From: Flectobacillus sp. BAB-3569
GTDB taxonomy: Bacteria > Bacteroidota > Bacteroidia > Cytophagales > Spirosomataceae
Direction: 5' to 3'
Assembly: GCF_002270355.1 (NCBI RefSeq)
Contig: NZ_NJFZ01000018.1
Location: 1-64,000 of the forward strand
Length of the DNA stretch: 64,000 bases
Position numbers and translations under genes: made by a program. Positions 54,514 to 63,152 of this stretch are shown piece after piece (position 1 is the stretch's first letter; each line of letters opens with the position of its first letter). The notes under the pieces were generated by a model that was given only the letters and a program-made list of their open reading frames with translations, was not told where the DNA came from and did not search any database.

Positions 54514-54879
54514 TTATTTAATCCGTTTAAAAAACCTTGACATAAAGATGGCATTTGCATGAACATAGTCTAATTGCATTGTATCTTCATAAAATACGCA
54601 TTTATAGGTAGTTCCGCCTGAATTCAGAAATCCATTATTTTCCCAAAAGTATTTTTCTACACCTAAATTGCCCGTAGTATATTGCTGGTGTAGTAGAACA
54701 CTATCCTCAAGATATTCATCATACCATTTTACACCAGTTGGCGCTTCTATTCTTCCATTACCGATACCAACGAATTCCCATTTTCCTAAAATCGCTTTTT
54801 GTGGAGAAACCTCATCGTCTTTACAGCTTATAGAAAGCGTAAATAACAACAGTAAAATAAGTCTAGATCGTGTTTTCAT
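54514..54879 (-). CDS. Lipocalin-like lipoprotein, paralogue 1 of 3
   Basis: A 121-residue lipoprotein (lipobox LFTLSISC, Cys19) with the lipocalin-like opening AILGKWEFVGIGNGRIEAPT and closing strands TYKCVFYEDTMQLDYVHANA, ending FKRIK. It differs from paralogue 2 (55043-55408) at about five of 121 positions and more from paralogue 3 (57196-57561). Lipocalin-like lipoproteins of this size are frequent in Bacteroidota, with unknown ligand. The gene lies on a duplicated segment together with a truncated MITE end at its 3' side. Confidence 0.75.
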   Translation of the reverse strand: MKTRSRLILLLLFTLSISCKDDEVSPQKAILGKWEFVGIGNGRIEAPTGVKWYDEYLEDSVLLHQQYTTGNLGVEKYFWENNGFLNSGGTTYKCVFYEDTMQLDYVHANAIFMSRFFKRIK

Positions 54880-55042: not shown

Positions 55043-55408
55043 TTATTTAATCCGTTTAAAAAAGCTTGACATAAAGATGGCATTTGCATGAACATAATCT
55101 AATTGCATTGTATCTTCATAAAATACGCATTTATAGGTAGTTCCGCCTGAATTCAGAAATCCATTATTTTCCCAAAAGTATTTTTCTACAACTATATTGC
55201 CCGTAGTATACTGCTGGTGTAGTAGAACACTATCCTCAAGATATTCATCATACCATTTTACACCAGTTGGCGCTTCTATTCTTCCATTACCGATACCAAC
55301 GAATTCCCATTTTCCTAAAATCGCTTTTTGTGGAGAAACCTCCTCGTCTTTACAGCTTATAGAAAGCGTAAATAACAATAGTAAAATAAGTGCAGAGCGT
55401 GTTTTCAT
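55043..55408 (-). CDS. Lipocalin-like lipoprotein, paralogue 2 of 3
   Basis: A 121-residue lipoprotein, almost the same as paralogue 1 (changes are near residues 6, 22, 72-73 and 115). Lipobox LFTLSISC. The upstream DNA (55409-55530) is nearly identical to that of paralogue 3 (57562-57680), so paralogues 2 and 3 share a longer duplicated unit including the leader. No frameshift or stop is present, so all three appear intact. Confidence 0.75.
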   Translation of the reverse strand: MKTRSALILLLLFTLSISCKDEEVSPQKAILGKWEFVGIGNGRIEAPTGVKWYDEYLEDSVLLHQQYTTGNIVVEKYFWENNGFLNSGGTTYKCVFYEDTMQLDYVHANAIFMSSFFKRIK

Positions 55409-57195: not shown

Positions 57196-57561
57196 TTATT
57201 TAATCCGTTTGAAAAAGCTTGACATAAAGATGGCATTTATATGAACATAGTCTAGCTGCATTGTATCTCTGTAAAATACACATTTATAAGTAGTCCCTTC
57301 TGTATTCAGAAACCCACTATTTTCCCAATAATATTTTGTTTTAACTATCTGACCAGTGGAAGATTGATAGTGCAAACGGAGGCTATCTTCAAAATATTCA
57401 TAATACCATTTTACGCCAGATGGCGCTTCTATTCGTCCATTACCGATACCAATGAATTCCCATTTTCCTAAAATAGCTTTTTGTGGTGAAACCTCCTCGT
57501 CTTTACAGCTTATAGACAGCGTAAATAACAATAGTAAAATAAGTGTAGATTGTGTTTTCAT
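57196..57561 (-). CDS. Lipocalin-like lipoprotein, paralogue 3 of 3
   Basis: A 121-residue lipoprotein, the most diverged of the three (about 20 differences from paralogue 2, such as GVKWYYEYFEDSLRLHYQSS). The lipobox LFTLSISC and the closing SSFFKRIK are kept. It is separated from paralogue 2 by the rightward gene at 55777, so the duplication was followed by, or spanned, an insertion. Ligand unknown. Confidence 0.75.
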   Translation of the reverse strand: MKTQSTLILLLLFTLSISCKDEEVSPQKAILGKWEFIGIGNGRIEAPSGVKWYYEYFEDSLRLHYQSSTGQIVKTKYYWENSGFLNTEGTTYKCVFYRDTMQLDYVHINAIFMSSFFKRIK

Positions 57562-58240: not shown

Positions 58241-59824
58241 ATGAAAAAGAGCTACTTCCTTATCGCATTCTTAGTCATCTGTTCATCAACAATAAGTCTC
58301 ACCTTTTCACAACAAAAAGGGACTGGGGCTAATTTCGACCTCTCTACAATTGCCGCTACTCCTCAAAAAATAGAACTTTCTTTACGCAGTTTTAGAGGGA
58401 TGCCTGCAGCTCATTCACTAGAAAAATATTGCCCTACTCCTGGCGACCAAGGGAATCATGGTACTTGTGTGGCATTTGCCAATGGCTATGGAATTGCTAC
58501 TATTTTGTATGCCAAAACACATAATCTTACCGATAAAACACTGATTGACAAATATGCTTTTTCTCCTACTTTCTTGTATGAACAAATCAAGAAAGCAGGT
58601 GATACTGACTGTCAAAACGGTGCAGATCCAATTAAGGCCTTGCTCACTATGATTGAAAAAGGTGAAGCATTGATGAAGAGTGTTCCTTATAAATGTGGAT
58701 TACCCATCACCCCAGAAATATCTAAAGAAGCCATTAAATATCGTATTGCCGATGCTGCGATTCTTTACGCTACTGGTATCAAAGAGTACGAAAAACCCGA
58801 ACAAGTAAGAATTGATTTGACGAAGAAAGCACTTTTAGAAGGTTCGCCCGTTTCTACAGGTTTTAATTTGCCAGAAACATTTTTCAAAATAAAGTCAGAA
58901 GTTTGGGAACCTTCACCCAATGAAGTACTAAATGATTGGAAACACAACGGACACGCCATGGCCATTGTTGGTTACGACGATAACAAAGCTGGCGGAGCAT
59001 TCAGAGTACTAAATAGCTGGGGTGCTAACTGGGCAGACCACGGCTATGTTTGGATCAAATACAAGGATTACGCTAAGTGGTGTATCGTGGCAATTCAGGT
59101 TTTTGGAGCGACTGACACTCCTGCTCCTGTAGAAGTAAAACCCACACCCAAACCTCAACCAAGTCCTGAGCCACAACCAAAACCAAGTCCGATACCCGAG
59201 TACACGTTCAGTTTGAGTGGTAACATAGAGTTCAAACTAAATACAGGTGAAAATATGGATGTTGGGAAAACCTCCACGAGAAATTTAACCGTTGAAGAAG
59301 AAATTCAAGGGCCTAAAGAAGATTTAGTAGCTTATACAATGGCAAATGCCTATACGAGTGGTACAGCTTTTCGTTTCTTTATGAATGTTGATGCCGAAGC
59401 ATATGTATATGCTTTTGCCACGGATTTAACGGGACAAGTAAATCGAATTTTACCTTTTAATGACAATACTTCAACTCATGTTGGGGCAAACAGTACCATC
59501 GCTTTTCCTTCAGACACCAAGGTTATCAAGTTGGATAATCAAAAAGGTACAGACTATCTTTTGATTTTATACGCTGCTGAAAAATTGGATGCTAAAGCCA
59601 TTGCCGAAAAAATGAACGGTATGACAGGTGCCTTGAGCACCAAAATCAAAACAGTATTAGGGAATAAACTGATTGATAAGGCTAAAATTACGTATGATAC
59701 AAATCGTGTTGCTTTTAGTACGAAAGGACATTCAACACGAAACTTAACGGTTGCTGATGATGATCCCGCTACGCCAACTACTGGTAGCGTTGTGCCTTTA
59801 ATGATTGAAATTAAACACAACTAG
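58241..59824 (+). CDS. C1 (papain-like) cysteine protease with DUF4384 domain, secreted
   Basis: A 527-residue exported protein (signal peptide ending near LTFSQQ). The papain-type domain (about 45-290) has the oxyanion Gln70 and Cys76 in PGDQGNHGTCVAFAN, His238 in NGHAMAIVGYDD and Asn258 in VLNSWGANWADHGYVWIKY, so it looks active. A Pro-rich linker (KPTPKPQPSPEPQPKPSP) leads to a DUF4384 domain (about 363-490; YTSGTAFRFFMNVDAEAYVY, KGTDYLLILYAAEKLD). Residues 346-351 and 499-504 are TRNLTV, one on each side of that domain. The same hexamer is in the WD40-caspase gene that starts 31 bp downstream, and the two almost surely form an operon. There is no obvious propeptide. Confidence 0.88.
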   Translation: MKKSYFLIAFLVICSSTISLTFSQQKGTGANFDLSTIAATPQKIELSLRSFRGMPAAHSLEKYCPTPGDQGNHGTCVAFANGYGIATILYAKTHNLTDKTLIDKYAFSPTFLYEQIKKAGDTDCQNGADPIKALLTMIEKGEALMKSVPYKCGLPITPEISKEAIKYRIADAAILYATGIKEYEKPEQVRIDLTKKALLEGSPVSTGFNLPETFFKIKSEVWEPSPNEVLNDWKHNGHAMAIVGYDDNKAGGAFRVLNSWGANWADHGYVWIKYKDYAKWCIVAIQVFGATDTPAPVEVKPTPKPQPSPEPQPKPSPIPEYTFSLSGNIEFKLNTGENMDVGKTSTRNLTVEEEIQGPKEDLVAYTMANAYTSGTAFRFFMNVDAEAYVYAFATDLTGQVNRILPFNDNTSTHVGANSTIAFPSDTKVIKLDNQKGTDYLLILYAAEKLDAKAIAEKMNGMTGALSTKIKTVLGNKLIDKAKITYDTNRVAFSTKGHSTRNLTVADDDPATPTTGSVVPLMIEIKHN

Positions 59825-59855
59825 TATTCCTATCAAACTTATCAAATAAAACATT

Positions 59856-62800
59856 ATGAAGAAGTGCTTAATCTTATTACTCTTGTTTCCATTGATACTT
59901 TTTGCTCAGAAACCTCAATTGGTTATCAAATCGGGCTTGCAAAGTGAGGTAATGATGGCTTCGATTTCGCCTGATAATAAAGTTGGTTTAACGGTTGAAG
60001 AAAACGAAGTGCTGATTTTATGGGAATTAAGTACGGGAAAACAACTACAAAGTTTTCCCAATATAATGGCCGCTGATTTTAGGCTGGATAATAAAACGAT
60101 TGACATCGTAACGAACCAATATAAATTCCAAACAATAGACTATAATGGAAATGTGGTCAGCCAAAGTCCAATTAATAATACGGGTAAAGATAAACATAAC
60201 CGCCTGAATTGGTCTTATCACCGAAAATCAAGTCTTTTGTTAAGTAATGCCAGTATTTACACTCGTGAAAATGGCTTTAGAGGAACTATTAGAATCAACA
60301 AATTTGGGGTTGAACAAGACTATTCGGATGAAAGAAATGCAATTTCGATTCCGTTCGGAAATGATGTGACATTATGTAAAGTACCAAGTGGTGAAATCAT
60401 CAAAGAACTCAATTTTAATTTAGCAAAAAGCGGTTATGCAAGTGATCCGATTCTTGAAATAAAATTCACTCGATTTTCGCCCGATGGACGCTACTTGATG
60501 GCAGGCAACAATAACTCATTGGAAATATTGGATATCAATACAGGTCAACGTATTTATTCATACATTCATCCTAATGAATACAAAACCAAAATATTAAATC
60601 TTGCAGGTTTTTCGCCAGACAGCAAGAAAATCTTTATTCATACGTCTAATGAAATAATCTTAGTCAACCTTGAAACTAAACAAGATATTTGGCGTATAAA
60701 GCAAGCTGATTTCCATGTCAGTGAATATGGAAGTAGAAGGGGTGTAATCCGTTTTTCGGATGATGGGAAAAAGATCCTACTCGGAACACAAAAAAATCTT
60801 AGCCTTCTCAGTACAGAGAATGGCCAGACTATTACTAAGCTAGTCGGAGTTACAAAAGAGGAAGTTTTTTATCATCATCTTTCTGAATCTTCTAATCAAT
60901 TACTCATCGAATTTGATAAAAAAGCAGCCATTTGGGATTTGTCTTCTGGTGCAATGCGAAAAGTAATTCAGACCAACCAACCTGCATTTGAATATCATTT
61001 ACAACTTAATCAAAAAGGGAGTAAATTATATGATTTCTGGACTGAAATAGATTTAGCAAATAATGCTCATAAAGATTTTCTTTACGAAGCAGGAGGAGGC
61101 AGGCCAAGCAACATGGGCTTATCTTTCGATGATAAATATCTTTTCCATGTAGCGTATTACAGAGACCCAAAAATTGAAGATCAGTATAGTGTCAATCAGG
61201 ATAAATTGGTTGTAGCCGATGTTACAACGAAGAAAATTTTATGGCGGAAAAAAGCAGTTAATCAAGCTGTTTTTGCTCATACTTCTAAACAAATCGCCAC
61301 AATCAATACCTTTGGAGAATTTACAAGTATAGACTTACTAGACGGAGCTACAGGGAACTTAGTCAAGAAAATTACTTTACCCAAAAAATATGTTGGTGGC
61401 GGAAGGCTGACATTTTCAATGAATGATAAATACCTTACTTGCCAGTCGGGTAATGGACAAATAATCGTTGAAGTCAGCACAGGAAAAACAATAGATATCC
61501 CAGAGCTTTTACCCAATGGCAAAAAAACTTTTTATTCAGCTACTTTCACAGCCGATGAAAACTATTTGATTGCTAGTAACTATGATGGAGAGTTACATTT
61601 TTACAATATCCAGCAACAACAATGGGATATGGCTAAAACAATAAAGGCCTATACCGATGCCGTGGCAGGGGTAACTCTCAGTAAAAACAATCGTTATTTA
61701 TTCACAAACGCTCGTGAAAACAATATAAAACTTTGGGATTTACAAACCCGTGAACTCTTAGCGACTTTATACCCAGTTCCCTCGACTGGCGAATGGGCGG
61801 TTGTTACGCCTAATGGGCAGTTCGATGCTTCCGTAAATGCTCAAAAAGATTTATACTTTGTAAAAGGAGTGAACTCTTTTCCCTTAGAAATACTTTACGA
61901 AAAATATTATACGCCCAAATTATTGCCCCGCATTTTAGCTGGCGAACGTTTCCCTGCCGTAGATGCTGATTTTGATGATTTGCACAAAGCACCAATTTGT
62001 AAGATTTCTTATGAACAAAAAACAAGAAACCTCACCGTTGAAGACGATAGCAAGCCAATTTACGAAAACACAACAGGACTTGCAGAAATAACCGTAAATG
62101 CTACTGCCGAAAATGATAAAATTGATGAAATCAGGTTATTTCATAACGGTAAAATCGTGAATTTGGCTACTCGTGGTTTATTCGTAACCGACAATACAAC
62201 GGGAACAGATACTAAGAAATATACCATTAATCTATTAGCTGGTCAGAATGTTTTCAGAGCCATCGCCCTGAACAGCCAAAGAACAGAAAGTCAGCCCGAT
62301 GAAATTATTGTGAATTACAAAGCTGGAAACCAGCCAAATAACAAACCAAACGTTTCAAAAGATGGCGGTATTATCGACGCTGTTGATAAAAATGCAACCC
62401 TCCACTTAGTTGTTGTTGGCATCAATCAATATCAGAATGAGAAATTATCGCTCAACTATGCCCTTGCAGATGCAACCGCCTTTAAAGATGAAATAGAAAA
62501 AGATGCGAAAACGGTTATTTCAAACGTAAAAACCTATTTCGTCACTGATACAAAGGCTGATAAAAATGGGATTATAAATGCATTGACAGAAGTACAAAAA
62601 ACGGCGAGAGCACAGGATGTGTTTGTATTTTATTATGCGGGTCACGGCGTAATTTCGGATAAAAACAAAGAGTTTTATCTAGTGCCAACCGATGTATCTG
62701 ACCTGAAAAATGTAGATGAAATACTTTTACAGAAAGGTATTCCTTCGAAGCAATTACAAGGATATGCTGTTAATATTCAGGCACAAAAACAAGTATTTAT

Positions 62801-63152
62801 TTTGGATGCCTGTCAAAGTGCTGGTGCTTTCGAGCAACTAATTGCGGCGGATGCCAATCAACAAAAGAGTTTAGCCGTCGTGGCAAGAAGTACAGGAACT
62901 CATTGGATGGCGGCATCGGGTTCTAAGCAATTCGCCAATGAATTTGCTACACTCGGTCACGGTGCTTTTACGTATGTGTTACTTCAAGCCCTAAAAGGAC
63001 AAGCAGCCAACAATAAAATGATTACGGTAAATGGACTCAAAAACTTTATTCAGGTACAAGTACCCGAACTCATGAAAAAGTACAGCGGAACACCGCAATA
63101 TCCAGCTAGCTATGGACTAGGGAACGATTTCCCCGTGGAAATGATGAAGTAA
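59856..63152 (+). CDS. WD40-repeat caspase-like protein (peptidase C14 family)
   Basis: A 1098-residue exported protein (signal peptide MKKCLILLLLFPLILFAQ). Residues 25-640 carry repeated WD40-type blades (FTRFSPDGRYLMAGNNNSLE, KNNRYLFTNARENNIKLWDL). A short Ig-like segment (about 735-822) precedes a caspase fold (848-1095) with His930 in YYAGHG and Cys986 in DACQSAG, both catalytic residues of C14/orthocaspases. TRNLTV occurs at 723-728 in the linker between propeller and Ig/caspase part. Orthocaspases cut after Arg/Lys, so this could be an autocleavage site. The propeller may be a sensor. It lies 31 bp after the C1 protease gene. No family of this exact order is known to me by name. Confidence 0.88.
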   Translation: MKKCLILLLLFPLILFAQKPQLVIKSGLQSEVMMASISPDNKVGLTVEENEVLILWELSTGKQLQSFPNIMAADFRLDNKTIDIVTNQYKFQTIDYNGNVVSQSPINNTGKDKHNRLNWSYHRKSSLLLSNASIYTRENGFRGTIRINKFGVEQDYSDERNAISIPFGNDVTLCKVPSGEIIKELNFNLAKSGYASDPILEIKFTRFSPDGRYLMAGNNNSLEILDINTGQRIYSYIHPNEYKTKILNLAGFSPDSKKIFIHTSNEIILVNLETKQDIWRIKQADFHVSEYGSRRGVIRFSDDGKKILLGTQKNLSLLSTENGQTITKLVGVTKEEVFYHHLSESSNQLLIEFDKKAAIWDLSSGAMRKVIQTNQPAFEYHLQLNQKGSKLYDFWTEIDLANNAHKDFLYEAGGGRPSNMGLSFDDKYLFHVAYYRDPKIEDQYSVNQDKLVVADVTTKKILWRKKAVNQAVFAHTSKQIATINTFGEFTSIDLLDGATGNLVKKITLPKKYVGGGRLTFSMNDKYLTCQSGNGQIIVEVSTGKTIDIPELLPNGKKTFYSATFTADENYLIASNYDGELHFYNIQQQQWDMAKTIKAYTDAVAGVTLSKNNRYLFTNARENNIKLWDLQTRELLATLYPVPSTGEWAVVTPNGQFDASVNAQKDLYFVKGVNSFPLEILYEKYYTPKLLPRILAGERFPAVDADFDDLHKAPICKISYEQKTRNLTVEDDSKPIYENTTGLAEITVNATAENDKIDEIRLFHNGKIVNLATRGLFVTDNTTGTDTKKYTINLLAGQNVFRAIALNSQRTESQPDEIIVNYKAGNQPNNKPNVSKDGGIIDAVDKNATLHLVVVGINQYQNEKLSLNYALADATAFKDEIEKDAKTVISNVKTYFVTDTKADKNGIINALTEVQKTARAQDVFVFYYAGHGVISDKNKEFYLVPTDVSDLKNVDEILLQKGIPSKQLQGYAVNIQAQKQVFILDACQSAGAFEQLIAADANQQKSLAVVARSTGTHWMAASGSKQFANEFATLGHGAFTYVLLQALKGQAANNKMITVNGLKNFIQVQVPELMKKYSGTPQYPASYGLGNDFPVEMMK

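Follow-up and report, generated by a model that had tools for sequence, protein, structure and literature searches.

The window, a 64,000-nucleotide stretch of Flectobacillus sp. BAB-3569 (contig NZ_NJFZ01000018.1, positions 1 to 64,000), contains two neighbouring protease genes whose products carry the same short arginine motif, TRNLTV and its close variants. One product is a papain-type (C1) protease with a C-terminal DUF4384 domain (P0001, 527 residues, 58241..59824, + strand), and the other is a WD40-caspase (P0002, 1098 residues, 59856..63152, + strand). As judged from the sequences, the shared Arg motif is probably a cutting or recognition signal common to both proteases, and we lean modestly towards the view that it is a basic-residue processing signal read by the caspase of the operon. 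Processing by the caspase is favoured because the conserved basic residue lies in flexible loops, a similar word is found in the p20-p10 linker of another caspase family and the wording of the motif covaries with that in the neighbouring protease. The motif, its positions, its low model confidence, its conservation and its covariation are direct observations, whereas cleavage at the motif, the identity of the cutter and the effect of activation are inferred.

Motif copies in the two proteases

In P0001, site A (TRNLTV, followed by EEE; residues 346-351, 59276..59293) is in a loop inserted between early strands of the C-terminal β-sandwich, and site B (TRNLTV, followed by ADDD; residues 499-504, 59735..59752) is in the loop preceding its last strand. 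In P0002, site C (TRNLTV, followed by EDDS; residues 723-728, 62022..62039) and site D (TRGLFV, followed by TDN; residues 772-777, 62169..62186) are in the first and the second loop, respectively, of an immunoglobulin (Ig)-like domain; all four sites are on the + strand. An earlier note on this DNA had described a triplicated TRNLTV motif, and the copies at residues 346 and 499 of P0001 and at residue 723 of P0002 are confirmed on the sequence, as are their codons (ACG AGA AAT TTA ACC GTT, ACA CGA AAC TTA ACG GTT and ACA AGA AAC CTC ACC GTT). A fresh DNA duplication, already dismissed in that note, is rejected because these synonymous codons differ between the copies. The count of three is real but incomplete, as a fourth, related copy (TRGLFVTDN) begins at residue 772 of the caspase, and the hexamer is the core of a longer unit, which continues with EEE, ADDD or EDDS, or with TDN at residue 772. 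The caspase copy had been placed correctly between the propeller and the caspase domain, where sites C and D occupy two loops of the Ig-like domain. Contrary to what had been claimed, the two P0001 copies do not bracket DUF4384; the homologues and the model put both in loops within one C-terminal β-sandwich.

In the genome of this strain (6.62 Mb, 183 contigs), a degenerate DNA pattern for TRNLTV, which also admits Ser for Arg and Phe for Leu, gives four matches, and the reversed control gives none. Three of the matches are the window copies. A chance repeat is ruled out, because the reversed control is empty when compared with these three copies and because the motif recurs in distant homologues. 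An N-glycosylation sequon (N-L-T) is also ruled out, with homologues reading NLVV, NLQV or RGL. The fourth match is in an exported-looking protein of 131 residues on another contig (L004; G000 contig C34:102117), of which the C-terminus reads ...TTRNLTVNK and which is kept in two genomes of the same genus (L077 and L078). This protein was considered as a further partner and set aside; it is not linked to the pair and has no acidic tail. A wider motif search of the same genome yields 21 matches, compared with 17 in the reversed control, and no convincing further partner. Seventeen of the 21 were inspected, the other four being outside the residue filter of that inspection; they include three known sites and two strict matches in other open reading frames (ORFs), and the remainder are short ORFs, weaker variants or, in one case, a match with an internal stop.

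Predicted structures of the motif loops

The AlphaFold2 model of P0001 (44 sequences) has a mean predicted local distance difference test score (pLDDT) of 89. Its only segments of at least three residues with pLDDT below 50 are 347-355, 501-504 and 506-508, which are sites A and B; Arg500 itself sits just ahead of the segment 501-504. The model of P0002 (29 sequences) is of moderate quality, with a mean pLDDT of 70 and several weak segments, and within its Ig-like domain (about 713-823) the pLDDT is below 50 only at 722-731 and 771-780, which are sites C and D. The expectation that the copies are in loops is borne out by the models, where all four are found at low-confidence loops. The copies look like flexible insertions within β-sandwich domains, because pLDDT is below 50 at all four inside domains that are otherwise better modelled. 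The best fold match of the P0001 model is Xylellain (PDB entry 3ois; Foldseek E-value 6.4e-16), and this match covers the protease part of P0001.

Conservation and specificity of the motif

The homologous loci are the best 80 of a larger scan of named genomes, ranked by similarity to the C1 protein of the window, and this set therefore over-represents window-like pairs. A C1 protein and a WD40-caspase are both present in 28 of these best 80 loci, including loci of Mucilaginibacter, Flavihumibacter, Saprospiraceae, Flavobacteriaceae, Neolewinella and three Pelagicoccus/Puniceicoccaceae genomes, which we take to be Verrucomicrobiota. The alignment of the homologues extends TRNLTV to [TSx]-R-[NG]-L-x-V-x-[DE]-[DE], with motif definitions being refined after the homologues had been seen. 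The Arg motif of site C is shared by 33, and that of site D by 32, of the 38 aligned WD40-caspases (window included); two of the six misses at site D still read TRGFKPV, and one ends at a contig edge. Site A is present in 21 of 26 window-type C1-caspase pairs, a count that combines 20/25 computed with L217 added by eye (its caspase ends at a contig edge), omits L225 and L239, whose caspases are of another kind, and takes L228 (RNLITEDD) and the incomplete L229, as well as L217, as present. The pairs in which site A is absent are those of Paraflavitalea, of one Chitinophagaceae genome and of the three Pelagicoccus/Puniceicoccaceae genomes, and at least one caspase per locus keeps the motif there. 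Nine of the 79 aligned C1 rows, counting the window, have site B, and all nine are close to the window type. The idea that a basic residue is kept at the same three places in homologous pairs thus holds mostly for sites A and C, but site A is missing in 5 of the 26 pairs and site B belongs to close relatives only. When tallied over the 28 pair loci with a broad regular expression, which admits chance matches (the C1 match of L239 lies outside the loop), the motif is found in both proteins in 21 loci, only in the C1 protein in 1 and only in the caspase in 6. In one Lewinellaceae genome (L227), G replaces N at sites A, C and D together.

The pair is patchily distributed, probably by transfer or repeated loss, because no full-length match to the WD40-caspase is found in the four genomes of the same genus that were searched, yet a genome of another genus in the same family has the pair at 88% nucleotide identity and about 92% protein identity. 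This other pair keeps all four motif copies intact, and its flanking genes differ. In-frame stops interrupt two C1 homologues elsewhere (G011:C1 and G019:C11), which shows that some members of the family are decaying.

The strict form of the motif, R[NG]L.V.[DE][DE], is concentrated in the two protease families. It gives 48 matches in 32 of 37 WD40-caspases and 27 matches in 20 of 94 C1-DUF4384 proteins, although proteins within each class are related and the matches are thus not independent. Among 12 short C1 ORFs there is one match, in a C1 protein ending at a contig edge, and there are none in 38 short caspases, in 28 members of a family of about 200 residues or in 30 other caspases. Among 992 other neighbouring ORFs, two match; the ORF sets are mechanical (longest non-overlapping, at least 110 residues), and these 992 include some non-genes. 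One reversed and three permuted motifs have no match in any protein class. Both matches among the other ORFs are an exported-looking DUF4384 protein of 339/340 residues, whose gene separates that of the C1 protein from that of the caspase and in which the motif heads a Pro-rich linker. It occurs in a Saprospiraceae genome and in a Chitinophagales genome, and the Pfam assignment was made on the first of the two.

Covariation between the partner proteins

The wording of the motif in the C1 loop was compared with every 8-mer that the regular expression finds in the neighbouring caspases, unpicked, using 20,000 permutations. From 95 C1-DUF4384 rows (window included), 46 were kept, after dropping 21 without a caspase within 6.5 kb, 26 without a loop motif and 2 without a caspase 8-mer. 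The C1 and caspase strings match better than permuted ones, with 0 of 20,000 permutations doing as well at n=46. After thinning to below 60% C1 identity the result is again 0 of 20,000 (n=18), and after thinning to below 45% it is 178 of 20,000 (n=9); kinship is handled in these tests by identity thresholds alone. A version with strings picked by eye (47 rows of 8-letter strings, omitting, for example, L197, L225, L229, L246, L248 and L254) gives 0 (n=47), 0 (n=19) and 6 (n=8) of 20,000 permutations and serves as an illustration only.

Related motifs in other operons

A different, short caspase with a catalytic DCCN sequence adjoins other C1-DUF4384 genes, in operons of the Dyadobacter and Siphonobacter types. 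The p20-p10 linker of these short caspases, between the catalytic Cys and p10, often contains a looser version of the motif, [RK]-G-[IL]-x-[VL]-T-x-D. The basic position is K in 18, R in 10 and D in 1 of 29 sequences (K/R in 28/29), it is followed by G in 24/29, and 6/29 have a gap in the middle of the motif. The window WD40-caspase has no motif in its p20-p10 linker, and its copies at 723 and 772 precede the caspase domain. Several C1 proteins of these operons resemble the short caspase in the wording of loop A, such as RGIDVTND with RGIDVSKD and KGIQVTPD with KGIGVTQD, and others, for example that of L198, are without similar wording. In the proteins of about 200 residues encoded in the short-caspase operons, the core motif is seen near the N-terminus, after the apparent signal peptide, in 6 of 28 (for example TKGLEVRDD), a match in L182 being discounted as it lies within the hydrophobic start. 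Flavobacterial and Mucilaginibacter C1 proteins accompanied by yet other caspases read RNFNIVK beside RGFKIVK and RGLKVV beside RGLKVV. At L183, L193, L194 and L201 there are clusters of caspases, a C1 protein and an exported-looking protein of about 200 residues; that of L183 also has a second caspase, a LamG-domain protein and DUF4384-like and Sigma70_r2-like proteins, both below the Pfam cut-off.

The C1-DUF4384 homologues of L111-L114 are devoid of the catalytic Cys and His. They have TRSLTV or SRSLTV near the N-terminus and also a TRDLKVV-like string in the DUF4384 loop, and because such copies keep the motif, their sequences argue that it does not serve C1 activity itself. By Pfam, the neighbours at L111 include proteins that match TssG and TssN and one that narrowly misses the cut-off for TssF, and those of L112-L114 resemble them by eye, as type VI secretion system-like gene sets. 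Another stretch, L110 (G164), encodes a caspase, a protein of about 200 residues, a dead C1-DUF4384 protein, a DUF4384-like protein, a WD40-caspase and a ClpV-like AAA protein, and [RK]NL.V is common to three of its proteins (VRNLVVED, TKNLEVVDE and LRNLEVDN).

Proposed processing by the caspase and other explanations

If the motif is processed by the caspase, the WD40-caspase, with its propeller, Ig-like domain and caspase domain, would most likely be a zymogen specific for basic residues. Its cuts would follow the Arg of R-[NG]-L-x-V-x-[DE]-[DE], both within the Ig-like domain of the caspase itself (sites C and D) and within the β-sandwich of the papain-type protease that contains DUF4384 (sites A and B). 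Target sensing by the propeller could then switch both proteases through a single activity. Given how strongly the residues behind the Arg are conserved, the N-terminus exposed by the cut (NLTVEDD or GLFVTDN) would probably have a function of its own, such as binding the partner or a pocket within the same domain. It is conceivable, although we would not yet lean that way, that caspases, papain-type proteases, DUF4384 proteins and the partners of about 200 residues form an exported zymogen network, mostly in Bacteroidota, linked through a single cleavage word that is lineage-specific and covaries ([RK]|[NG]-[LIF]-x-[VI]...), in which the cut frees a functional N-terminus.

Several observations weigh against processing by the caspase. 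Most of the conserved residues (N/G, L, V and the acidic ones) are on the prime side, and the positions that precede the Arg are variable; a plain caspase site would be expected to show conservation before the Arg, not after it. Such a pattern points either to a role for the new N-terminus or to docking by the segment. None of the sites marks a domain boundary, and the caspase copies are flanked by Ig-like sequence instead of a bare linker. With the sites in intradomain loops, one cut would nick a β-sandwich and not simply release DUF4384, so that the earlier picture of a freed caspase domain and a released DUF4384 is doubtful. In the covariation set, the own partner is best or tied best for only 9/46, partly because the wording is uniform across whole clades. 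The presence of the core is loosely linked between the partners (37 both, 10 C1 only, 13 caspase only and 13 neither; Fisher p 0.018, uncorrected for descent), and the broad C1 loop motif is found in 46/75 proteins with a caspase within 6.5 kb, compared with 10/19 without one, four of these ten carriers being near contig ends. The homologues of L111-L114 keep motif-like strings, yet have no caspase within 6.5 kb. Among the six WD40-caspases without a C1 neighbour, in whose loci no C1 match is found, the insertion at site C is absent from three, and two have TRGF at that position. Two apparently unrelated ORFs of the own genome also match the strict motif (RNLPVFDD, 188 residues, and RNLIVGEE, 409 residues), and a sequence search found no solved relative of the P0002 caspase domain.

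An unlikely but serious alternative is that the segment is a docking peptide that stays uncut, the flexible loops of both proteases binding a single groove (on either protease or on a third partner) and thereby assembling the enzymes and the DUF4384 proteins into one complex. The conserved letters span the Arg to the acidic pair, there are multiple copies per protein, and covariation of partners needs only a common reader, not cleavage, all of which agrees with docking. The short caspases speak for cleavage instead: their p20-p10 linker is the classical place of processing, and its basic position alternates between R and K, which would suit a protease specific for basic residues. A structural role, as a turn and edge strand of the Ig-like and DUF4384 sandwiches that is kept for folding, is improbable. 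This would fit the strings RGLKVV and RGFKIVK at the start of the Ig-like stretch of caspases without WD40, as well as RGFEVV strings in a caspase of 708 residues whose C1 neighbour is without the motif. The window copies, however, have pLDDT below 50, in many C1 homologues the entire insertion is absent although the strands on either side can be aligned, and the matching wording in non-homologous partner proteins is left unexplained. Equally improbable is a processing site with a reader other than the caspase, either the C1 protease or some further exported protease with Arg specificity. The window-type C1 partners do retain their catalytic residues, but the catalytic Cys and His are absent from five motif-bearing C1 homologues (L110-L114). 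For papain-type enzymes, P2 is the main specificity position, and it is variable in this motif; a basic P1 fits the C14 family.

Comparison with known protease systems

P0002 resembles the orthocaspases and metacaspases (C14, PF00656) in having a caspase domain with a His-Cys dyad. According to three papers (PMC3501461, PMC9622860, PMC6426788), metacaspases and orthocaspases cleave after Arg/Lys and mature by cuts after Lys/Arg between p20 and p10, as exemplified by a Candida glabrata metacaspase, which is cut after K263 and R307 in the p20-p10 region and also after R54. Unlike in metacaspases, the copies of the window WD40-caspase are in an upstream Ig-like domain, and a papain-type partner carries the same motif. 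In bacterial gasdermin systems, a caspase-like protease activates a neighbouring partner by cleavage; in the window, in contrast, the partner is itself a protease, and the proteins have apparent signal peptides. Bacterial caspase-fold proteases also act on operon partners, sometimes protease on protease, in Craspase, CalpL and SAVED-CHAT/PCaspase. These CRISPR-linked cascades differ from the window system, in which the proteins appear to be exported and the covarying motif is in loops of both partners. No description of the motif or of the C1-DUF4384/WD40-caspase pair was found in the searches made of the open-access literature.

To our knowledge, the targets and the switching of bacterial orthocaspases are known for few cases. 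In this case, candidate sites and partners can be read from the sequence, as the same word is present in a caspase and in the neighbouring papain-type protease and tends to covary across lineages. Substrate and activation thereby become testable with few point mutants, and the motif can be used as a search string for more partners. If the exported zymogen network exists, it would be an operon-encoded bacterial counterpart of the animal caspase or clotting cascade.

Domain architecture and neighbouring genes

The C1 and WD40-caspase genes, separated by a gap of 31 bases, are both on the + strand, and adjacency and strand suggest that they form one operon. Both proteases appear to be exported, as judged by eye from N-terminal signal peptides. 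P0001 matches PF00112 (E-value 2.1e-13; 51.3 bits, above the curated cut-off of 20.7) at residues 69-287 (58445..59101, + strand), and a Pro/Lys-rich linker of lower pLDDT (residues about 298-322, 59132..59206, + strand) connects this domain to the C-terminal β-sandwich (residues 326-527, 59216..59821, + strand), which contains DUF4384 (PF14326; E-value 1.2e-10; 41.7 bits, above the curated cut-off of 27). The catalytic Q70, C76, H238 and N258 are all present and aligned to conserved columns of the homologues, the Cys, His and Asn columns being invariant or nearly so across 44 aligned C1 sequences. P0002 matches WD40 (E-value 2.1e-07) and, at residues about 848-1096 (62397..63143, + strand), the caspase (C14) family PF00656 (E-value 1.2e-14; 55 bits, above the curated cut-off of 21.4). 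Its His930 and Cys986 form a dyad that is invariant in 29 aligned sequences, and the catalytic residues of both proteases look intact. The β-sandwich in the interval between propeller and caspase (residues about 713-823, 61992..62324, + strand) was delimited from the strand pattern of the model and the alignment of homologues, and the name Ig-like was assigned by eye. Against the NCBIfam model caspase_w_EACC1 (NF047832), P0002 scores 88.2 bits, under the curated cut-off of 140. At the level of single proteins, the PADLOC models match P0002 by a generic caspase model only and P0001 by none.

Just upstream of the protease pair, three near-identical lipoprotein-like ORFs of 121 residues (MKT.S..LILLLLFTLSISCKD) are found on the - strand, at 54514-54879, 55043-55408 and 57196-57561. 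They flank an unrelated ORF of 412 residues and are probably the result of a recent local duplication.

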